Below are positions 12,028 through 25,020 of a stretch of DNA of 32,459 bases, in pieces. Origin of the DNA: a virus. A program made the translations under genes and the position numbers. The stretch is taken from IMG/VR virus record IMGVR_UViG_3300032288_001394, positions 1-32,459 of that record; one strand, given 5' to 3'. The notes beneath the pieces were generated by a model. It was given only the letters and a program-made list of their open reading frames with translations. It had not been told where the DNA came from and made no database searches. The number at the start of each line of letters is the position of its first letter. The first letter of the stretch is position 1.

Positions 12028-15000
12028 TTAGCGGACTAGCCACTCTTCGACTCCGTCCATATCCTCTCGAATCTTGATCCACCTCGGATTGGCCGGAAGC
12101 CCAGTAAGAAGAGGTAGACGACCCATGATTCCGATGGTCACCCACTCGGGGCGCTCTGACCTCGGAATGTATTCATAGTCCGGGTCGTAGTCAGGGTTGA
12201 GCGTTCCCTGATTGTTTTCGTCAAGGATGATTCGACCAAACTTGTCCCGAAGGAACTTGCCATACCAGCGAGTCTCGCTTGAGTTGCCGATCACTACAGG
12301 ATTCGTGCTGACAATGCCAACAATGATAGTCGGGTCATCATCTGTCGTTGCTGGACGAACTTTGCCGTCTGGAGTAAATACAACGCTAATGCCTACTCGG
12401 TCTTCGGCATTTGGATTACCGTCTAGCCACTCAAAGTATTCGGCATAGTCAGCGCCTGTTCCTGTGTACGCAGCATCAGCAAAGGTAGCACCGTTGTTTT
12501 GTACATACCATTTTATATCTTTTGGAGCCGTAACGTCTGAAAAAACACCTAGCCTTCTTGTACCAGTTGTCGAACTTGCTCCATAAGTAGCGTAGACACC
12601 TGTTGAAGAGATTCTTCCACTTGAGCCGACGCCAGTAACCGGGTTAGTTCCGGTGTCTGTTGCAGTTGCTCCAATTAGAACAGAATCTCCGTTAAGTACA
12701 TAAAGAAGACCGCTAGAAATATTTACGTTTGAAGAAGCGCCTCCAACGTTTAACGTTGTTGCGGCTGCGCCAAAATTAATAGTTGTTGCTGTTGTGTTGA
12801 CAAGAGCAAAAGTGGTGCTACCAGTAAGAATGCTTGTTGTAAATGTAGGGCTAGTACCAAATACAAGAGCACCAGAGCCAGTTTCATCGGTTACAGCAGC
12901 CGCAAGATTCGCACTTGATGGAGTGCCGAGGAAAGTTGCTACACCAGTACCAAGGGACGACAGTCCAGTTCCGCCATTCGCAGCGGACAGCGGAGTGTCG
13001 AGAGTTACGCCAGTCGAATCAACTCGGAAACGCTCTGCTGCTGTGGTAGAACCGGGAGCAGCGGTGAGGATGTTGACGTATGAAGCAGAAGATGAGGCAG
13101 TGTGAGTTGCGCTCGCGTATGCGTTAATTTGAGCGCCTTGAACGTTTGCTGATCCGGTCCAGCCAAAAAATCTAATTACCCCGAGTCGGTCACCAGACTG
13201 AGTAATTCCTCCTGACGATCCTGAACTCCTTCTGAAATCTACGATTCCAGACGAAGAGGCAGTAGTGCTGGTTCCAGTCGCGGTGAGAGTAGGAATACTG
13301 CTACTCAGTGACAAGTTACCGAATGTTGGTGATGAGGATGTGCCGATGTCCTGAGGAGTTGAGAGAGTCACTGATCCGGTTGATGCAGAGGCAGTGATCT
13401 GATTGCTTGTTCCAGTAATACTTGTGACACCAGCGTTGGTAAGCGTCACCGAACTGCCGAGTGCGACCGCTCCACCGCCGCTCATCCCGGTGCCAGCCGT
13501 TACTGTCACAGAAGAGTTGACAAGAGCAGTATTCGGTACACCGCCAGTCTTGATGCTGACAGCGCCAGAAGTGACATCAAAGTTGGTAGCGGAGAAGGAT
13601 GCAATACCAAGAGTCGTCGTAGTCGCTTGGGCGGTGGCTACACCGGAAGTACCTTGGAGTCCTTGGAGTCCTTGGATGCCTTGAGTACCTTGGATTCCCT
13701 GTGCTCCAGTTGTTCCTGTCGCTCCTTGCGTTCCAGTTGTCCCCTGTAGTCCGGTCTCCCCTTGAATACCTTGTGTTCCGGTTTCTCCCTGAAGGCCAAC
13801 TGTGCCCTGAAGACCAGTGGTCCCCTGAGTACCCTGCGTTCCAGTATCTCCGGTCGTGCCCTGTATTCCTTGAATACCCTGAGTTCCTTGGGTTCCTGTA
13901 GAGCCTTGACTTCCGGTAGTACCCTGAGTTCCAACGAGTCCTTGAGTTCCTGTCTCTCCTTGGATTCCGGTCTGTCCCTGAAGACCAGTAAGTCCTTGGA
14001 TTCCAGTTTCTCCTTGTAGTCCTACAGTTCCCTGAAGGCCGGTAGTTCCCTGAACACCCTGTACTCCCTGCGCTCCGGTAGTGCCGGTTGATCCCTGCGC
14101 CCCATCCGTACCCTGTAGTCCAGTTGCTCCCTGTGCTCCAGTCTGACCTTGGATGCCGGAAGTGCCCTGCAATCCTTCTATGCCCTGTGTACCTGTCGAA
14201 CCTTGAGTACCAGTTGTTCCTTGAATTCCTTGTAGACCTTGCTCTCCTTGAATTCCTTGGATTCCTTGAACACCTTGAGTACCAGTTGTTCCTTGAATTC
14301 CAATCTCACCCTGAGCACCAGTGGTGCCCTGTGGTCCGGTCGTTCCTTGGAGTCCAGTTACTCCTTGCGCTCCGGTAACACCCTGTAGACCAGTTGTGCC
14401 TTGAGTTCCAGTAGTCCCCTGAGGACCAATTTGCCCTTGTGCTCCCGTCGTACCTTGTAGACCAGTTGCTCCTTGGACTCCAGTAATCCCCTGTGGGCCA
14501 AGTTGGGTGTACATAACCTGCATTGCGGTGACGATTGCTGAAGGAATACCCGGACCATAGGTTGACGTATTGTGCGCCATGACAATGTTGTTATTGTCTG
14601 TTGTCCACATAATCTGCAAGTAATCATTTGCAGTCAGGGAAAGCATGAAGTCCCATGCGGAAACAACGTATGGACTATTGGTATTTACGGTTACCCGAGT
14701 ATTCGAGTCTGGGACATCGGTTCCGTTCTTTCTAAGCCAAACCTCTACGGTTGTCCCGCCCCCGCCGCCGCCAGTATTGTGGAATTGAAATGAAAACTGA
14801 ATGTCGTATACGCCGGAGTAGTCGAATCGAATCTGTGAACCACTTTGGATACTTACACCATTATTCTCGGCGGTAGTTCCTAGTAGAACCGCTGTAGGGA
14901 CGCCTTCGTTTCCTACTCCAACGGTCTGGTCGGTAGTGTCGTAGAAAGAACCGTAATGACCTAGGGCACCACCAGCACCTTGGATTCCGGTGATGCCTTG

Positions 15001-17442
15001 AATACCTTGTAGTCCTTGAATGCCTTGAAGTTGGGCGTAGCCAAATCCCTGTATGCCCTGCAATCCTTGGGTTCCCTGAATACCTTGAGCACCTTCAATA
15101 CCGACAGCACCGGAGAGGTTGACTGACCATGACGAGTATGTTCCTGCTCCCAACTTACTTGTGTGGAGAAACGTCAGAGATCCAGTTGTATGGTCGTAAC
15201 TACTGACAGTTCCGTATTGAATGTTTGATACGTCGTGAGCAATGATAAGAGTCTGGCCGACTGAATAGTCAAGATTAGTTTCAACGGTGATGGTTGTAGT
15301 TCCACTGTTGCTGATTGTGAAGGAAGATGTGGACGAGGTGCTGTACTGATCTCCGGCTTCACCAACAAGTCCTTGGATGCCTTGAGTGCCTTGAGCACCC
15401 TGCAAGCCAGTAAGACCTTGGAGGCCAGTTGTTCCTTGAGTTCCTGTAGCGCCTTGAGTACCTACTGAACCTTGAGTGCCTGTTTCTCCCTGAATACCCT
15501 GAATCCCCTGAGCGCCCGTGGTTCCTTGAAGACCTGTCTGACCTGTTGCCCCTTGAGTTCCTGTAGCACCTTGCGTGCCAGTCGTGCCTTGTAGCCCAAC
15601 GCTACCCTGAACTCCTTGAAGTCCATCTGATCCTGTTGTTCCCTGAACTCCCTGAATACCCTGACTTCCGGCAGTTCCCTGAAGTCCTGTAGTTCCTTGG
15701 GTTCCGGTAGAACCTTGAAAACCAACTTCTCCCTGTAGACCAGTGGTGCCCTGAGAACCTGTTGCACCTGTAGTTCCTTGAGTGCCCTGTAGTCCGGTGG
15801 CTCCTTGAATTCCTGTTTGACCAGTTGTACCTTGTGAGCCAGTCGTACCTTGGGCACCAGTGGTGCCTTGTAGCCCGACGCTCCCCTGAGTTCCAGTAAA
15901 TCCTTGTAGACCGGAAGTTCCCTGAGAGCCTGTCGTGCCCTGAGAACCAGTAGTTCCTTGAGCACCAGTAAAGCCTTGCGTTCCTACAAGTCCCTGTGTT
16001 CCACTCTGTCCTTGAATACCGTTAGTTCCTTGAAAACCAAAACTTCCTTGAATGCCAACGTCCCCTTGAAGGCCAGTTGCACCCTGAGATCCTGTCGTCC
16101 CTTGAGTTCCCTGAGTTCCTTGAAGACCTGTTGCTCCCTGAGTTCCGGTTGCACCCTGCGAGCCAGTTGTACCCTGCACTCCTTGTAGACCCTGAAGACC
16201 TTGCACTCCTTGCAAACCTTGAGTGCCAGTTGCACCTTGTATGCCAGTTGTCCCCTGAATTCCCTGAAGACCTTGTTCTCCTTGAAGTCCTTGGATACCA
16301 GTCAGACCTTGAACTCCGATTAGCCCCTGAGTTCCTTGTACTCCCTGTGTTCCTTGCATTCCTTGCAAACCTTGAGTGCCCTGAACACCCTGAATTCCCT
16401 GCGTGCCTTGTACTCCCTGTGTTCCTTGCAGACCCTGAAGACCTTGAGTTCCTTGAGCCCCCTGAATCCCTGTTGTCCCCTGTACTCCTTGTACTCCCTG
16501 TACTCCTTGAAGACCTTGTAGACCTTGTAGACCTTGAGTGCCGGTTGCACCTTGTATTCCTGTTGTTCCTTGAGTTCCCTGTACTCCTTGGGTTCCCTGC
16601 ATTCCAGTAAGACCTTGAACACCCTGATCTCCAACAGGGCCAATGGGTCCACGAGTTGTTACCAGACCGGATAGACCAACCGGAGTATCCGTCCAACGAT
16701 CAAGTTGCGTGATATTTACTGAAGAACCATCTGCGTATGGAAGATAGATTCTAAACTCGTTAGGAGACGACCCGCTTGTCCGCGTACGAACTCTGTAGTA
16801 CCAGTTGAGAGGCTTAAGGTTGTAGTTGTCAGTGCATGGAAGGTCGATAGAAAACTCACCATTATCGTCAAGGGTAACGATTACGGCATTAGAGATAATG
16901 ACATTGTCATTGTCGTCGAGAATCTTCGACGAAGGCATAAACGTAATCGTGCCTGTAGATGGTCCGCCGTCTGAGTTTAGATACTGACCAAACACATTTC
17001 GTACAACAGTATCTGGGGCGTACGAGGCAACTTCCGGCAGAGAGAACAGAATGGGTGACTCACTTGGAGAAACTACACCTGTGAGTGAACTTGCTGTTCT
17101 AATAGGTGGTACGGCATCAGAGATGACTACAGGCTCTCCGATATCCGAGAAAGGAAGATGAAGCCTGCGCTCTGTTGTGGGGGCACCGCTGGTTCGAGTT
17201 CTGATTGTGTAGTACCAACCAACCGGAGCCAGTGATGGATTGTCTGTGCATGGTAGTTCAGCAGAGAAGTATCCATTTTCGTCCAGTTGAATAATGTTGG
17301 TCCCGGCAATGACAACCTGACCGCTCGGTCCAGTAATGGTGGACGAAGGTACAATGGTTACAGTGCCCTTTGCCGGTGATCCATCTGGTGACAGAAACTG
17401 GCCCACGACAAGGCGAGTTGTAATATCCGATCCATAGGACAT
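12028..17442 (-). CDS. Giant collagen-like tail fibre with C1q-like and Peptidase_G2-type chaperone domains
   Basis: 1804 aa. Order of parts: two copies of a ~115-residue beta domain (about 10-120 and 145-255; both contain GQ[FY]L..DG and WYY..RTRTSG); a first Gly-X-Y region (about 266-697); a short beta insert (about 698-775); a second short Gly-X-Y piece; a C1q/TNF-like beta domain (about 825-980, [11 protein letters not shown] to [10 protein letters not shown]); a second long Gly-X-Y region (about 980-1265); a Ser/Thr/Gly-rich beta region; and a C-terminal domain from [10 protein letters not shown] (about 1661) with [14 protein letters not shown] and [14 protein letters not shown], matching Peptidase_G2, the self-cleaving intramolecular chaperone of phage appendages. 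Triplets are mainly Gly-X-Gln or Gly-X-Thr with almost no proline. It probably forms a trimeric host-binding fibre trimmed by its own tail domain. GGAGAG precedes the ATG. Confidence 0.93.
13647..14505. repeat. Collagen-coding repeat tract 2
   Basis: A 9-bp-period degenerate repeat encoding Gly-X-Gln and Gly-X-Thr triplets on the minus strand. Third-base positions vary freely, so the repeat is kept by protein selection rather than recent copying. The other frames of this tract give long artefactual ORFs rich in Leu/Pro/Ser or Arg/Glu. Confidence 0.85.
15350..16647. repeat. Collagen-coding repeat tract 1
   Basis: About 1.3 kb of 9-bp-period degenerate repeats coding for Gly-X-Y triplets with Gln or Thr in the third place on the minus strand. 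Some segments repeat nearly exactly (blocks of GLQG and GVQG), which makes the tract prone to expansion and to assembly error. Confidence 0.85.
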
Positions 17443-19673: not shown

Positions 19674-19898
19674 ATGCAATCAGCGAAGAGACTGAGTATC
19701 AGGGCTGTCGCTATCCGGTACGGTTTGCCACCAGCGGTAGTGTCCCGTGCAGTGGCTTCTGGTGACTTGCCCGCCGTGCTCGTCACAACGACGACAGGAC
19801 GCGAGCGGGCCTACATCTCCCCCGAGGACGCCGAGCACTGGCTTAACGAACGCCTTTCTATTAGTGCTAGTAATTCATCGGTCGGCGGTTCTGTATGA
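19674..19898 (+). CDS. Excisionase-like HTH (MerR-type) DNA-binding protein
   Basis: About 74 aa. The segment RAVAIRYGLPPAVVSRAVASGDLPAVLVTTTTG then RAYISPEDAEHWLNER is the winged HTH_17/excisionase layout: helix-turn-helix, a GDLPA turn, a beta wing and a closing helix beginning after the [IV]SPEDAE motif. An ATG at 19665 would add three residues, but GAAAGG touches it directly; the ATG at 19674 has the same GAAAGG at about 9 nt and is preferred. The stop overlaps the primase start as ATGA (19895-19898), so both are made from one transcript. There is no integrase here, so a role as regulator or origin-binding partner of the primase is more likely than excision. Confidence 0.87.
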   Translation: MQSAKRLSIRAVAIRYGLPPAVVSRAVASGDLPAVLVTTTTGRERAYISPEDAEHWLNERLSISASNSSVGGSV

Positions 19899-22507
19899 GT
19901 GATTGGGATGAAACAACCGAACGCCTTGCTTCCGCTGCGGACTACTACGCGGATCAAGGCTGGCAGGTGCTGCCATGTCATGGCATCCGTGAAGATAGCC
20001 GCTGTACATGCGGTCAACCACACAGTGAGCCGAAAGACGTAGGCAAGCACCCTCGTATCTCGGGGTGGAACAGCGAGGCAACGTCTGAACTGGCAACTGT
20101 TGATCGTTGGTGGCGCGAACTTCCAGATGGAAACATCGGAGTCTTCTGTAAGCCGTCTGGATTTTTTGTCATTGATATTGACCCGCGTTCAGGTGGGCCA
20201 GACTCGTTCGAGAAGTTCGAGCAACTGGTCGATGGTGCTCTGCCGCCGACTGTTGAGGCGATCACAGGTGAGTACAACGTCGGCGGTCGAATCCAGCGCG
20301 GACGGCACCTGTTCTACAAGTGCGCTTCAGATGAGGCTTTTGTTGGCAACCTCCAGAAGTCTGGGCTCAAAGGTATTGACATTAAGCACAACGGGTATGT
20401 GCTCGTTGCTCCATCGCGTCACTTTTCTGGTGTCACCTATGAGTGGGCACCGGGTAAGGCACCGTGGCAGATCGAGATGGCCGAGGCTCCTGAGGAGTTG
20501 TTGGTTGCTCTCCGTAAGAAGCCGCGCCGCGCGGGTGGTGCAAGTCTTGGCGAAGCCGACTGGAGTTGGCTTGATGGTCTTGACTTTGGTGGAGAGCGCG
20601 TCGATATCGAGCGGATGCTTGAGGATGGTATCGACGAGGGTTCGCGTGCTGTTGACATCTACAAAATGGCCTGTGCTCTGGCAAACAAGTTCCCTGTGAG
20701 CACCGAAGCCGGACGCATGGCTGTCGAGACGATGATGATCCGGTTCAATGCTGAGAAGGTTCGTCCTCCGTTGGAGTTGGAGGGACCGGGCGGTTTGCTC
20801 ATGCACGTTCGCCGCGCGATTGACTTCGTCATTGATAATCCACGGACTGAAAAGATCTGGCCGGGACTCCAAGAGTGGTCGAATAAATCTCAAGAAGAAG
20901 CCCGCGCTTCAACTGGTGAGAAGAAAAAGAGTAAGCCCGCTTCTACTAACGAATACTCTTTTGGTCTTCCCGGTTCTCTTGGTGGTCAGATCTCAGCGGC
21001 TCTGTACGACGGAGACTCTTTTGAAGAGGCTTCATCTCTGTCAAACATTGACGTTCCTAAAGATCCTGACGCCCTCCGCGAAGAAGACGGCGGCGAACCG
21101 GGTAAGCGCACTCTGTCAGATACCGGAAACGGTCGTCGTCTTATCGACACGTTCGGTCCTGCTGTTCGCTACACGCCGGGTCTTGGGTGGTTTCACTGGA
21201 ACCACGGATACTGGAAGCCGGACTCAGAGTCGCTTGAGATTATGGAACTGGCAAAAAAGTTGGCTCCAATCATTGCGTCCGAGGTTGTGAAGTACGACGA
21301 CGCAGACAAGCAAAACGAGGTCATCAAGTGGGCGCAGCAGTCAAAGTCAAACTCGCGACTCCGCGCTGCAATCGAGAACGCCAACTCTGATCCTCGCATT
21401 ATTGTCGGCGTCGAGAACTGGGACTGCGACGAGAACCTGCTGGGTGTTGCCAACGGAGTCATCGACCTCCGTACCGGAGAACTTCTGCGAGGCCGTCCTG
21501 ATCTCTACATCACCCGACGCGCTCCTGTTGCGTACAACCCCGGTATTCGCAATGTGCGCTGGGATCAGTTCCTTGAATTTGCAACAGGCGGAGATAAGGA
21601 ACTTCAGGACTGGATTCAACGTGCAGCGGGCTACTCGCTCACCGGCTCCAGTAAGTACGACCTGATGTTTCTCGTCTACGGTCCTCCCGGCTCCGGCAAG
21701 AACACGCTTGTCGAGGCGCTTGTGAAGTGTCTTGGCACGCAACAGTACGCATGGCCGATGGACTCATCCATCCTCGCGCAGGGCGACGGTCACGCGAACA
21801 GCACGGACCTGTACCACTGGGCAGAGTTGCGTGGTCGTCGTCTGGTGTGGGTGGACGAGTTGCCCGACAACGAGCGGCTCAAGGAGAACTCGGTCAAGAA
21901 GTTGACCGGCTCTTCTGAGATCTCTGCTCGTTCACCGGGCGAGAAGCCGTTCACGTTCCAGTCGCAGGCGAAGTTGTGGGTCACCACGAACCACCGACCG
22001 ATCATCACCGACGATGCAATGTGGCGACGTATCCGACCGATCCCGCTCACTCGCGTGCCGGAGAACCCGGACCCGGACCTCAAGGAGTACCTGTTCGATC
22101 CTGAGGGCGGTCTACCTGCGGTGCTTGCGTGGGCCGTTGAGGGTGCGATCAAGGTTATGGGCTCTGCTAATCGTGACGGTCTTGGCTGGTGCAAGGCTGT
22201 AGCAGAGGCTTCCGACATGTATCGAAAGAATGAAGATCGTATTGGTCTGTTCCTTAGCGAAGAGACCAAGGAGTCAGAAGGTGCTGAGACTCAGGTGAAG
22301 GCTTTGTACATGCTCTATCGAGTTTGGTCTGAAGAGCGTGGTGAGCGTCCAATGACTCAGATCGCATTCCATAGGAAGTTGGTTGAGCGCAATCTTCCTG
22401 TTGATGGAACAGGTGCTCATGCTGTCATCAGGAACCGGACATTGATGCCGCGCGTAGTCCCAAGCAGTGAGATCGACTGGGGTATGGCTGCACGCCTTGC
22501 GCGTTAG
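19895..22507 (+). CDS. Bifunctional prim-pol primase / SF3 (D5-like) helicase
   Basis: 870 aa. N-terminal prim-pol domain: GKHPRISGWNSEAT (50-63), a W-rich helix, NIGVFCKPSGF, the catalytic VIDIDPRSGG (D94, D96) and GRHLFY (H138), as in the archaeo-eukaryotic primase family used by plasmids and phages. Cysteines C28, C37 and C39 form a small extra cluster. A linker of ~150 residues, some of it Lys/Ser-rich, follows (about 340-385). The C-terminal half is a P4/D5-type SF3 helicase: P-loop VYGPPGSGKNT (~595), LVWVDELPDN (~650), TGSSEISAR and LWVTTNHRP with the arginine-rich WRRIRPI. It should prime and unwind phage DNA for the family A polymerase. Its stop overlaps the stop of the convergent terminase gene by 3 nt. 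Confidence 0.93.
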   Translation: MSDWDETTERLASAADYYADQGWQVLPCHGIREDSRCTCGQPHSEPKDVGKHPRISGWNSEATSELATVDRWWRELPDGNIGVFCKPSGFFVIDIDPRSGGPDSFEKFEQLVDGALPPTVEAITGEYNVGGRIQRGRHLFYKCASDEAFVGNLQKSGLKGIDIKHNGYVLVAPSRHFSGVTYEWAPGKAPWQIEMAEAPEELLVALRKKPRRAGGASLGEADWSWLDGLDFGGERVDIERMLEDGIDEGSRAVDIYKMACALANKFPVSTEAGRMAVETMMIRFNAEKVRPPLELEGPGGLLMHVRRAIDFVIDNPRTEKIWPGLQEWSNKSQEEARASTGEKKKSKPASTNEYSFGLPGSLGGQISAALYDGDSFEEASSLSNIDVPKDPDALREEDGGEPGKRTLSDTGNGRRLIDTFGPAVRYTPGLGWFHWNHGYWKPDSESLEIMELAKKLAPIIASEVVKYDDADKQNEVIKWAQQSKSNSRLRAAIENANSDPRIIVGVENWDCDENLLGVANGVIDLRTGELLRGRPDLYITRRAPVAYNPGIRNVRWDQFLEFATGGDKELQDWIQRAAGYSLTGSSKYDLMFLVYGPPGSGKNTLVEALVKCLGTQQYAWPMDSSILAQGDGHANSTDLYHWAELRGRRLVWVDELPDNERLKENSVKKLTGSSEISARSPGEKPFTFQSQAKLWVTTNHRPIITDDAMWRRIRPIPLTRVPENPDPDLKEYLFDPEGGLPAVLAWAVEGAIKVMGSANRDGLGWCKAVAEASDMYRKNEDRIGLFLSEETKESEGAETQVKALYMLYRVWSEERGERPMTQIAFHRKLVERNLPVDGTGAHAVIRNRTLMPRVVPSSEIDWGMAARLAR

Positions 22508-25020
22508 CGAACTCTGAAAGTAGATCCCCCGCCACCGCTGAACTTTCGACCAACGTCGATACGGCGGGCGGCGGGGGATTTTGCTTGTAGTCGTCCGCCA
22601 ACGAATCCTGCCGGTGGCTTGATGAGCAGAGCAGTTAGCGCGTGTACAAGTGCGTCAACTCGGTCTGGTGACTTTCCTTCACCCGGAATCCACTGAGTCA
22701 TCTGAGTTTCAAGATCTGCATGGATGCCAATGTGGTGAACGCGGCGCTGCTCATACGACAAGACAACCGGCTCAGCGCGTAGTGCCTTACCGTGCTTCGA
22801 GTGAACCTCAAGAACTTTGACATTCGGGTCGATGGCATTGATGGCATTGCGTACTAGAGCGCCACCTTGGTTGACTTCGGCAATCACTGGGCAGCCGTAC
22901 TTACGAGCCATATCTACAACTTTGTTGGCCCATACTTCTGGAGATCCGTGGATTGTTGCATCTTCCAGAACCCATGCCTTGCGCTTGTAAAGATCTCGCT
23001 CTCCCGTGCTCGCGCAGACAACGATTCCGCATTCGTCTCTAGGATTCTCGGCAACAGATGGATCTACTCCAATACAGCGAAGAGCGACTCCTGTCGGGGC
23101 TATGCCTTCGCGACATTCATCAATCATCTCCAGAGTCCACAGTGCGCCTTCGACATCGCTAAGCATCTCGCCATAAAGTTCCTGTTGTGCTAGACGAGTT
23201 CCGGCGTAAACGCCGGTAATGGCTTCGAGATACGCACCTGAAAGATTTCCTGCGTTATCAAGTGTCGAGCCTTTAGTAATTACAACTTTGCCAGTGCGCT
23301 TGGCTTCGTCCAGCAAGTCATAAAGAACTTTCACACGCTTTGGAGTTGTTGTTGCCAGAATCTGTGGGTTCATCCCAAGACGAGTTGCAACACGAAGGTT
23401 GTCCCATGAAGTCATACCCGCTGCGTCTGGAGTCTGTCGCCAAGCGGCCAACTCATCGGCCCATGCGTAGTGCGCCTGAATACCTCGGAGCGAGTCTGGT
23501 TCGTCTGCCGTGAAGCAGGTTGCCATGTTGCCGTTCGGCCAAGTTAGTCGGCGCTTTGACGGCTCATAGAGCGGCTTCTCACTTGGAGGTGAAACGTTAA
23601 TGATGCCAGACTCACCTTCTACGATGACATCGCGTACATCGGCGGCGGTACGAGCAACAAGTGCGAATCGGAGTTGGCCGTACTTGGTCTCTTTGGCTTT
23701 GTCACGAATCCACTCGGCTGCGGAGCGTGTGTTGTGTGTTGGGATCATGGCCTCGCCAGCGAGGTACATTGAGTTGGAGGAGTTCACTGTTAGGCATCGA
23801 GATAATTCAGCATCCACCTCGATCACCGATGTAATCATGCGATGACGTTGGCGCAGCGCCTGTGCGGCTAGAGAAGAGATCTTTTCGGCTTTGCGAGGAA
23901 GAAGGAAGGGGTTGTGTGTAGTCGGTCGCCACGTCACCCGGTACTTGGGACCACAATCTTTTCCATAAAGCGTGGCTCTGCTCTCGCTAAGGACGGGGCG
24001 TTCAGACAAAGAGCGAGACAATTCCAAAACTGCGATAGCGAGTTGCTTGTTGGTGTTGCAGAACTCGACGGTATTGCGACGGATGTCTGCGTACCCATCC
24101 GAGTCCATCAGTCCTCGCAGCAGCGCAAGACGCTGCTCTTCGGAAGCACGCAGATAGATAGCGGGGACATGCTTGTTGTGACGAACTCCCAACTTCCTTA
24201 ATTCAGCGCTGAGACCAGTAGTGCCGATGACGATGTCCCGAGAGTTATTCCACTTCGATGGTCGGTACCCAGCCGCCGAAAGTATCGGGAGCAGAAATGG
24301 TTGATCCTCTACTCCGCAGCAGATGGAGCCATCACGCTTGCTGCCATCGCCCAGCCATACCCCGAAGATGTATGGGTCGATAGGAAGGTCGGCGGTGGGT
24401 AGAGCCAGCGGTCGAGCGAGAGGAATGCAGTGGTTGCGGTCACCGCGAATGCCGATTGTTTGCGTCTTGTAGATCTCATCCGTAAGTCTGATCTCCGGGC
24501 CGATCTCGTCAACGACATTGTGGTGCGAGTCAAGTAGCGTGATTCGGTGATTTACCCAGTCCACAGGAAAATCGGTGACCGGCTCTTCGGTGTACCTCTG
24601 GAACTGCTTCCGGTCTCGATGCGTCCATGTTACCCACTGGTGGTCACCATCGGCATAGATAAAGACTCCATCCGAAAACTCGATCCGATACATGCGCTCG
24701 GGGATATAGGGGTCATGCGCCTCTGTAACGACACAGATATTGCCCTGCTCATCGAAGACTTGGTCCCCGGCCACAATGTCACCGATCTGCTTCCACCCAC
24801 TCGGGGTTGGAATAGGTGTGTCTATTCTCAGCGCCTTCCCTGCGCCTCGGCCAGCGAGGAAAAGAAAGATGTTCCATGAGTCATTGGGAGGTGGCAACTG
24901 CTCTGGACGCGCCCACAACTTCCAATCCCAAAGAAGTGACTCGGGGTCAATCTCGCGCAGGACGGCTTCGCGCTCTGCCTCGGGCATGAGCGCAAGTTGC
25001 TCCATGATGCTTTTTCCCAC
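22504..25020 (-). CDS. terL: Terminase large subunit interrupted by an intein
   Basis: 838 aa, of which about 470 are terminase. Packaging ATPase: Walker A is split as GRGAGK (57-62) | TRSAAEW (431-), restored to a perfect GRGAGKTR after splicing; Walker B is YAWADELAAW with the catalytic Glu; an ATTTPK motif III follows. The nuclease domain shows the RNase H-like acids: CIGVDPSVAE, VIAEVNQGG and SPDRVDALVHA. Start: GTG at 25020 with no Shine-Dalgarno, but a -10-like TATACT ends exactly 6 nt upstream, so the message may be leaderless; the in-frame ATG at 25005 is the alternative. A strong terminator lies just upstream, isolating it from the double-HTH gene. Confidence 0.96.
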   Translation of the reverse strand: MGKSIMEQLALMPEAEREAVLREIDPESLLWDWKLWARPEQLPPPNDSWNIFLFLAGRGAGKALRIDTPIPTPSGWKQIGDIVAGDQVFDEQGNICVVTEAHDPYIPERMYRIEFSDGVFIYADGDHQWVTWTHRDRKQFQRYTEEPVTDFPVDWVNHRITLLDSHHNVVDEIGPEIRLTDEIYKTQTIGIRGDRNHCIPLARPLALPTADLPIDPYIFGVWLGDGSKRDGSICCGVEDQPFLLPILSAAGYRPSKWNNSRDIVIGTTGLSAELRKLGVRHNKHVPAIYLRASEEQRLALLRGLMDSDGYADIRRNTVEFCNTNKQLAIAVLELSRSLSERPVLSESRATLYGKDCGPKYRVTWRPTTHNPFLLPRKAEKISSLAAQALRQRHRMITSVIEVDAELSRCLTVNSSNSMYLAGEAMIPTHNTRSAAEWIRDKAKETKYGQLRFALVARTAADVRDVIVEGESGIINVSPPSEKPLYEPSKRRLTWPNGNMATCFTADEPDSLRGIQAHYAWADELAAWRQTPDAAGMTSWDNLRVATRLGMNPQILATTTPKRVKVLYDLLDEAKRTGKVVITKGSTLDNAGNLSGAYLEAITGVYAGTRLAQQELYGEMLSDVEGALWTLEMIDECREGIAPTGVALRCIGVDPSVAENPRDECGIVVCASTGERDLYKRKAWVLEDATIHGSPEVWANKVVDMARKYGCPVIAEVNQGGALVRNAINAIDPNVKVLEVHSKHGKALRAEPVVLSYEQRRVHHIGIHADLETQMTQWIPGEGKSPDRVDALVHALTALLIKPPAGFVGGRLQAKSPAARRIDVGRKFSGGGGSTFRVR
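22524..22582 (+). terminator. Three-part hairpin in the terL 3' end, likely primase terminator
   Basis: ATCCCCCGCC (22524-22533) pairs with GGCGGGGGAT (22570-22579) over 10 bp, extended inside by CCGCTG/CGGCGG (35-40 with 62-67, one wobble) and TCGAC/GTCGA (46-50 with 55-59), and is followed by TTTT on the plus strand. It starts 17 nt after the primase stop, inside the last codons of the convergent terminase gene (Gly-rich end). It would stop plus-strand transcription while being coding for the other strand. Confidence 0.6.
23731..24834 (-). mobile_element. Class 3 intein with LAGLIDADG endonuclease, in TerL P-loop
   Basis: Residues 63-430 of the terminase ORF (368 aa). It starts with Ala (ALRIDTPIPTPSGW) instead of Cys or Ser and ends in PTHN before a +1 Thr. 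The class 3 triplet is all present: W129 in block B (GDHQWVT, with the usual H127), C409 in block F (RCLTVNSS) and T428 in block G (IPTHN). These replace the first-residue nucleophile with the block F cysteine. Two LAGLIDADG helices, IFGVWLGDG (219-227) and LRGLMDSDG (301-309), mark a homing endonuclease that may still be active. Known class 3 inteins are mostly phage-borne. The insertion point is between K62 and T431 of the Walker A motif. Confidence 0.93.

Follow-up and report, generated by a model that had tools for sequence, protein, structure and literature searches.

A class 3 intein bearing a LAGLIDADG homing endonuclease domain in the Walker A motif of a Terminase_6-type phage large terminase

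Class 3 inteins are defined by a Trp at block B:12, a Cys at block F:4 and a Thr at block G:5, together with the absence of a nucleophile at position 1 (PMC5222942, PMC5050341, PMC6195587), and both their mechanism and their signature have been described (PMC5222942, PMC6195587, PMC7664689). Class 3 inteins at the K|T site of phage terminases are already known. In particular, Kelley et al. (2016, PMC5050341) described TerL1-a, a "classic" P-loop position in the terminases of mycobacteriophages that separates Lys from Thr. It belongs to TerL of the Terminase_1 type, and the TerL6 inteins of the same study occupy another site, the C-motif. Open-licence papers yielded nothing on class 3 TerL inteins from actinophages or metagenomes that bears on the present case; subscription papers may exist. 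The mycobacterial DnaB-b/DnaBi1 mini-inteins (6bs8, 6rix, 6riy) share with the intein described here the P-loop insertion, Ala1, the Trp-Cys-Thr (WCT) triplet, the DxxH block B and the splicing-domain fold, but they are without an endonuclease.

The window analyzed here is the entire IMG/VR record IMGVR_UViG_3300032288_001394 (32,459 nt). Its terL gene almost certainly harbors a class 3 intein of full length that includes a LAGLIDADG homing endonuclease domain and splits the TerL Walker A motif between Lys and Thr (GRGAGK|T). The gene and its parts are as follows.

22504 to 25020, minus strand: terL precursor ORF of 838 aa with a GTG start, made up of Terminase_6N and Terminase_6C exteins and the intein (ORF translation and Pfam).
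24835 to 25020, minus strand: TerL N-extein of 62 aa, ending in ...LAGRGAGK, the first half of the Walker A loop (translation and intein-free relatives).
23731 to 24834, minus strand: class 3 intein of 368 aa, from A1 to H367-N368, precursor A63-N430 (translation, alignments and AlphaFold model).
24634 to 24636, minus strand: Trp67 codon (precursor W129), block B:12 of the WCT triplet, with H65 two residues earlier (numbering and alignment).
24331 to 24375, minus strand: first LAGLIDADG motif, block C, residues 154-168, PYIFGVWLGDGSKRD, with the acidic residue D163 (alignments).
24091 to 24132, minus strand: second LAGLIDADG motif, block E, residues 235-248, RLALLRGLMDSDGY, with D244 and D246 (Pfam and alignments).
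23794 to 23796, minus strand: Cys347 codon (precursor C409), block F:4, predicted initiating nucleophile (translation and alignment).
23731 to 23739, minus strand: Thr366-His367-Asn368, block G:5 to G:7, Thr366 being precursor T428 (translation and alignment).
22504 to 23730, minus strand: TerL C-extein of 408 aa plus the stop codon, beginning with TRSAAEW, which supplies T+1 of Walker A (translation and relatives).

The terL frame is open from end to end. Pfam matched the exteins to Terminase_6N (56 bits) and Terminase_6C (30 bits) and listed no Terminase_1 match to them. The intein begins with ALRIDTPIPTPSGW and ends with IPTHN, after which the extein resumes with TRSAAEW; the boundaries and residue numbers given in a first-pass annotation of this DNA agreed exactly with the translation. 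Joining the exteins computationally gave ...LAGRGAGK|TRSAAEW..., a TerL of 470 aa and 51.6 kDa, in line with the ~52 kDa proposed earlier for the spliced product. That annotation had also proposed that removal of the intein restores GRGAGKTR in the P-loop and that intein-free homologs should reveal an empty site, and both points were confirmed by five intein-free TerLs with 75-86% identity to the joined window protein, namely those of IMG/VR loci L001-L004 and of the lake phage DSL-LC01 (81% identity), all of which have an uninterrupted GRGAGKTR. A chance insertion or assembly artefact is ruled out, because the alignment of the joined exteins to these five relatives runs through the junction, and because inteins match the insert from end to end.

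Comparison with known structures placed the splicing residues precisely. The three best phmmer matches in the PDB were the mycobacterial class 3 DnaB inteins 6bs8, 6rix and 6riy (E 1e-16 to 1e-17), headed by the Mycobacterium smegmatis DnaB intein 6bs8 (E 1e-17, query residues 1-69 and 334-368). In the alignment with 6bs8, residues A1, H65, W67, C347, T366, H367 and N368 each stand opposite the corresponding class 3 residue; W67 faces W67, A1 faces Ala1, and C347 lies in RCLTV opposite RCVEV. Residues W67, C347, T366, H367 and N368 were invariant in all 15 rows of an alignment comprising the window intein and 14 relatives from viral contigs (IMG/VR), and C347 was also invariant in the 18 rows of a second alignment. 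Position 1 was occupied by A, M, D, Q or L across the 15 rows, and never by C, S or T. The window intein thus combines Ala1, in place of a nucleophilic Cys, Ser or Thr, with Trp B:12, Cys F:4, Thr G:5, the penultimate His, the terminal Asn and T+1. With the class and the residue numbering resting on homology, the phmmer matches, the WCT triplet and the modeled fold bear out the earlier proposals of an Ala start, of W129, C409 and T428 at blocks B, F and G (intein residues 67, 347 and 366), and of a class 3 assignment; the agreement in residues, boundaries and relatives is far beyond chance. A class 1 intein is ruled out by Ala1 and the block F Cys. The class 1 intein gp41-1 has a related block A and a Thr at G:5, but it differs from the window intein in its Cys1 nucleophile and in being without a block F Cys and an endonuclease domain. 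Features of class 1 and of class 3 occur together in an AAA-protein intein of Lactococcus phage AM5 (L038, 1498-2559), which has Cys1, a block F Cys and THN, with Ile for the block B Trp.

The AlphaFold model of the intein (mean pLDDT 92.8, pTM 0.91) has the HINT splicing fold of class 3 inteins. It matched the class 3 DnaB intein 6bs8_C with a Z of 19.6 (1.3 Å, 125/125 residues, 38% identity) and, over nearly its full length, the PI-SceI intein/LAGLIDADG endonuclease with a Z of 27 (328 residues). Within the model, intein residues 148-321 matched I-DmoI (Z 14), and the insert scored 25 bits against Pfam LAGLIDADG_3 (cut-off 22.5). The two LAGLIDADG motifs, which the first reading had already described as apparently complete, retain all three conserved acids (D163, D244 and D246).

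The same K|T junction carries an intein in related TerLs of at least five uncultivated phages (L008, L009, L010, L011 and L014, IMG/VR), which also have the WCT triplet; they share 37-50% identity with the window over the aligned part of the exteins and 47-52% in the intein. Unlike the window intein, those of L011 and L014 have Met and Asp at position 1, respectively, and L014 has Asn for the block C acid. L012 appears, from its sequence, to carry a sixth same-site intein with an N-terminal extension after GRGWGK and Ser at +1. In this TerL P-loop intein (L012, 3900-5095, GRGWGK|...|S), a seemingly extra Cys-containing stretch of ~20 residues, LVEAGEPVLTACRCKANVPC, precedes the usual start of block A. 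In the intein tree, the same-site TerL inteins together with L012 and L013 formed one group with moderate support (88/96); most inner branches were weak, so that the tree is compatible with strict vertical descent as well as with repeated homing. The window intein was at most 52% identical to any intein found. No closer donor was found in bacterial genomes, where matches reached only 24-44% (Gordonia, Williamsia, Mycolicibacter and one MAG), and no further intein copy was present in the whole 32,459-nt record. A tblastn search turned up related sequences in 718 phage records; for 495 of these, the match covered at least 80% of the query. The count also takes in genes for other inteins and for endonucleases and should not be read as a tally of class 3 TerL inteins. 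Related inteins are commoner in phage terminases than the rarity implied by the first-pass annotation.

Cultivated phages offered further comparisons. Mycobacterium phage JeTaime gp10 (L027) has an Ala1/WCT intein at ARKNGK|T that also resembles the window intein in THN|T and in the retained LAGLIDADG acids; judging from this junction, JeTaime probably belongs to the TerL1-a set of Kelley et al. However, the two inteins share only 39-42% identity and come from different phage lineages, and the window TerL, which has its insertion at the Lys|Thr position of TerL1-a, has exteins of the Terminase_6 type rather than the Terminase_1 type of the published site. The TerLs of Microbacterium phages Zooman (L055, 1779-4079) and A3Wally (L056, 858-3149) are related to the joined window protein (62-66% extein identity) and contain class 3-type inteins with Ala1, W, C, T and HN, but these lie at VIVEGE|SGI and leave the P-loop uninterrupted; they are about 268 aa long, and no LAGLIDADG motif could be recognized in them by eye. 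The window TerL is empty at VIVEGE|SGI. The P-loop intein in the window and the VIVEGE|SGI intein in Zooman and A3Wally indicate that this TerL family has been invaded at two sites.

Inteins commonly decay, and loss of splicing or of endonuclease activity would be in keeping with the Asn that replaces D163 in the relatives L012 and L014. In the window, however, the frame is open and all catalytic splicing residues and the three LAGLIDADG acids are retained, and TerL is essential, so that splicing must presumably work if the phage is viable; a decaying intein is therefore very unlikely. A class 2 intein, in which the +1 residue would attack directly and the block F Cys would be incidental, is likewise very unlikely. 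Ala1 also occurs in class 2 inteins and the class 2 route is compatible with the sequence alone (PMC5222942), but the full WCT triplet is invariant across relatives, the best splicing-domain matches are class 3 structures, and replacement of Cys F:4 with Ala stopped splicing in all three of the inteins with a class 3 signature that were tested (PMC5222942).

Another reading, which takes up the gate on packaging proposed in the first-pass annotation, keeps the class 3 assignment and adds conditional, for example redox-sensitive, splicing as a regulatory gate on DNA packaging. Because the intein splits the P-loop, it is reasonable to infer that the unspliced precursor lacks productive P-loop ATP binding, and the insertion should block ATP use before splicing, as in the RadA precedent cited in PMC6195587. 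In addition, H2O2 inhibits the class 3 intein in the P-loop of M. smegmatis DnaB (PMC6195587), and the window intein contains further cysteines at positions 34, 136, 172, 173, 259 and 294. Against this, Cys48, the redox-switch residue of M. smegmatis DnaBi1 (PMC6195587), is Met48 in the window intein in the alignment with 6bs8, and a DnaBi1-like redox switch is ruled out with this partner absent. Moreover, splicing was efficient when five terminase and terminase-like inteins (TerL1-b, -c, -e, TerL6-f and Pham3880-g) were placed in a reporter, with ligated exteins as the main product (PMC5050341), and no sequence sign of slow or conditional splicing was observed in the window intein. We thus regard a regulatory gate as unlikely, and the more specific proposal, that a conditionally spliced K|T class 3 intein times the start of packaging in an actinobacterial-type phage with a Terminase_6 TerL, as a rather slim prospect.

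As judged from its sequence, the window intein is most likely a mobile and splicing-competent class 3 intein. On the pathway established for other class 3 inteins, splicing would begin with an attack of Cys347 on the bond between Lys(-1) and Ala1, which would generate the branched intermediate at block F. Transfer of the N-extein to Thr+1 would come next, followed by cyclization of Asn368, aided by His367, and the joined exteins would make up a TerL of 470 residues in which GRGAGKTR is intact. In terL alleles free of the intein, the predicted endonuclease may cut at the conserved codons of the P-loop, and such cleavage would allow the intein to spread by homing. Around the insertion point, 33 of 40 bases match in L001, the nearest empty allele, and thus the putative recognition site is broadly conserved; as only these 33 match, homing into those phages stays a prediction.

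The nearest TerLs to that of the window belong to actinobacterial phages, which suggests an actinobacterial host. A prim-pol/D5 primase-helicase gene (19895-22507, plus strand) converges on terL with a 4-base overlap, and this neighborhood is partly kept in L001-L004. The rest of the record is rich in replication genes, including those for a DNA polymerase, a Snf2-type helicase, exonucleases and a Sak4-like protein. Positions 12028-17442 (minus strand) encode an 1804-residue protein, many stretches of which match several tail fiber and collagen-like families.

Taken together, the window intein is an ordinary further member of the class 3 inteins at the K|T site of phage terminases, and its additions are modest: the Terminase_6 context, an intein identity of no more than 52% and clear empty-site relatives. 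It nonetheless adds a well-bounded class 3 intein carrying an endonuclease domain, and it indicates that use of the K|T position in the P-loop extends from Terminase_1 TerL, for which it was described, to the Terminase_6 TerL of uncultivated phages. The general picture of inteins is unchanged, and the value of this case lies in tracing the spread of inteins and in widening the range of class 3 inteins to draw on.
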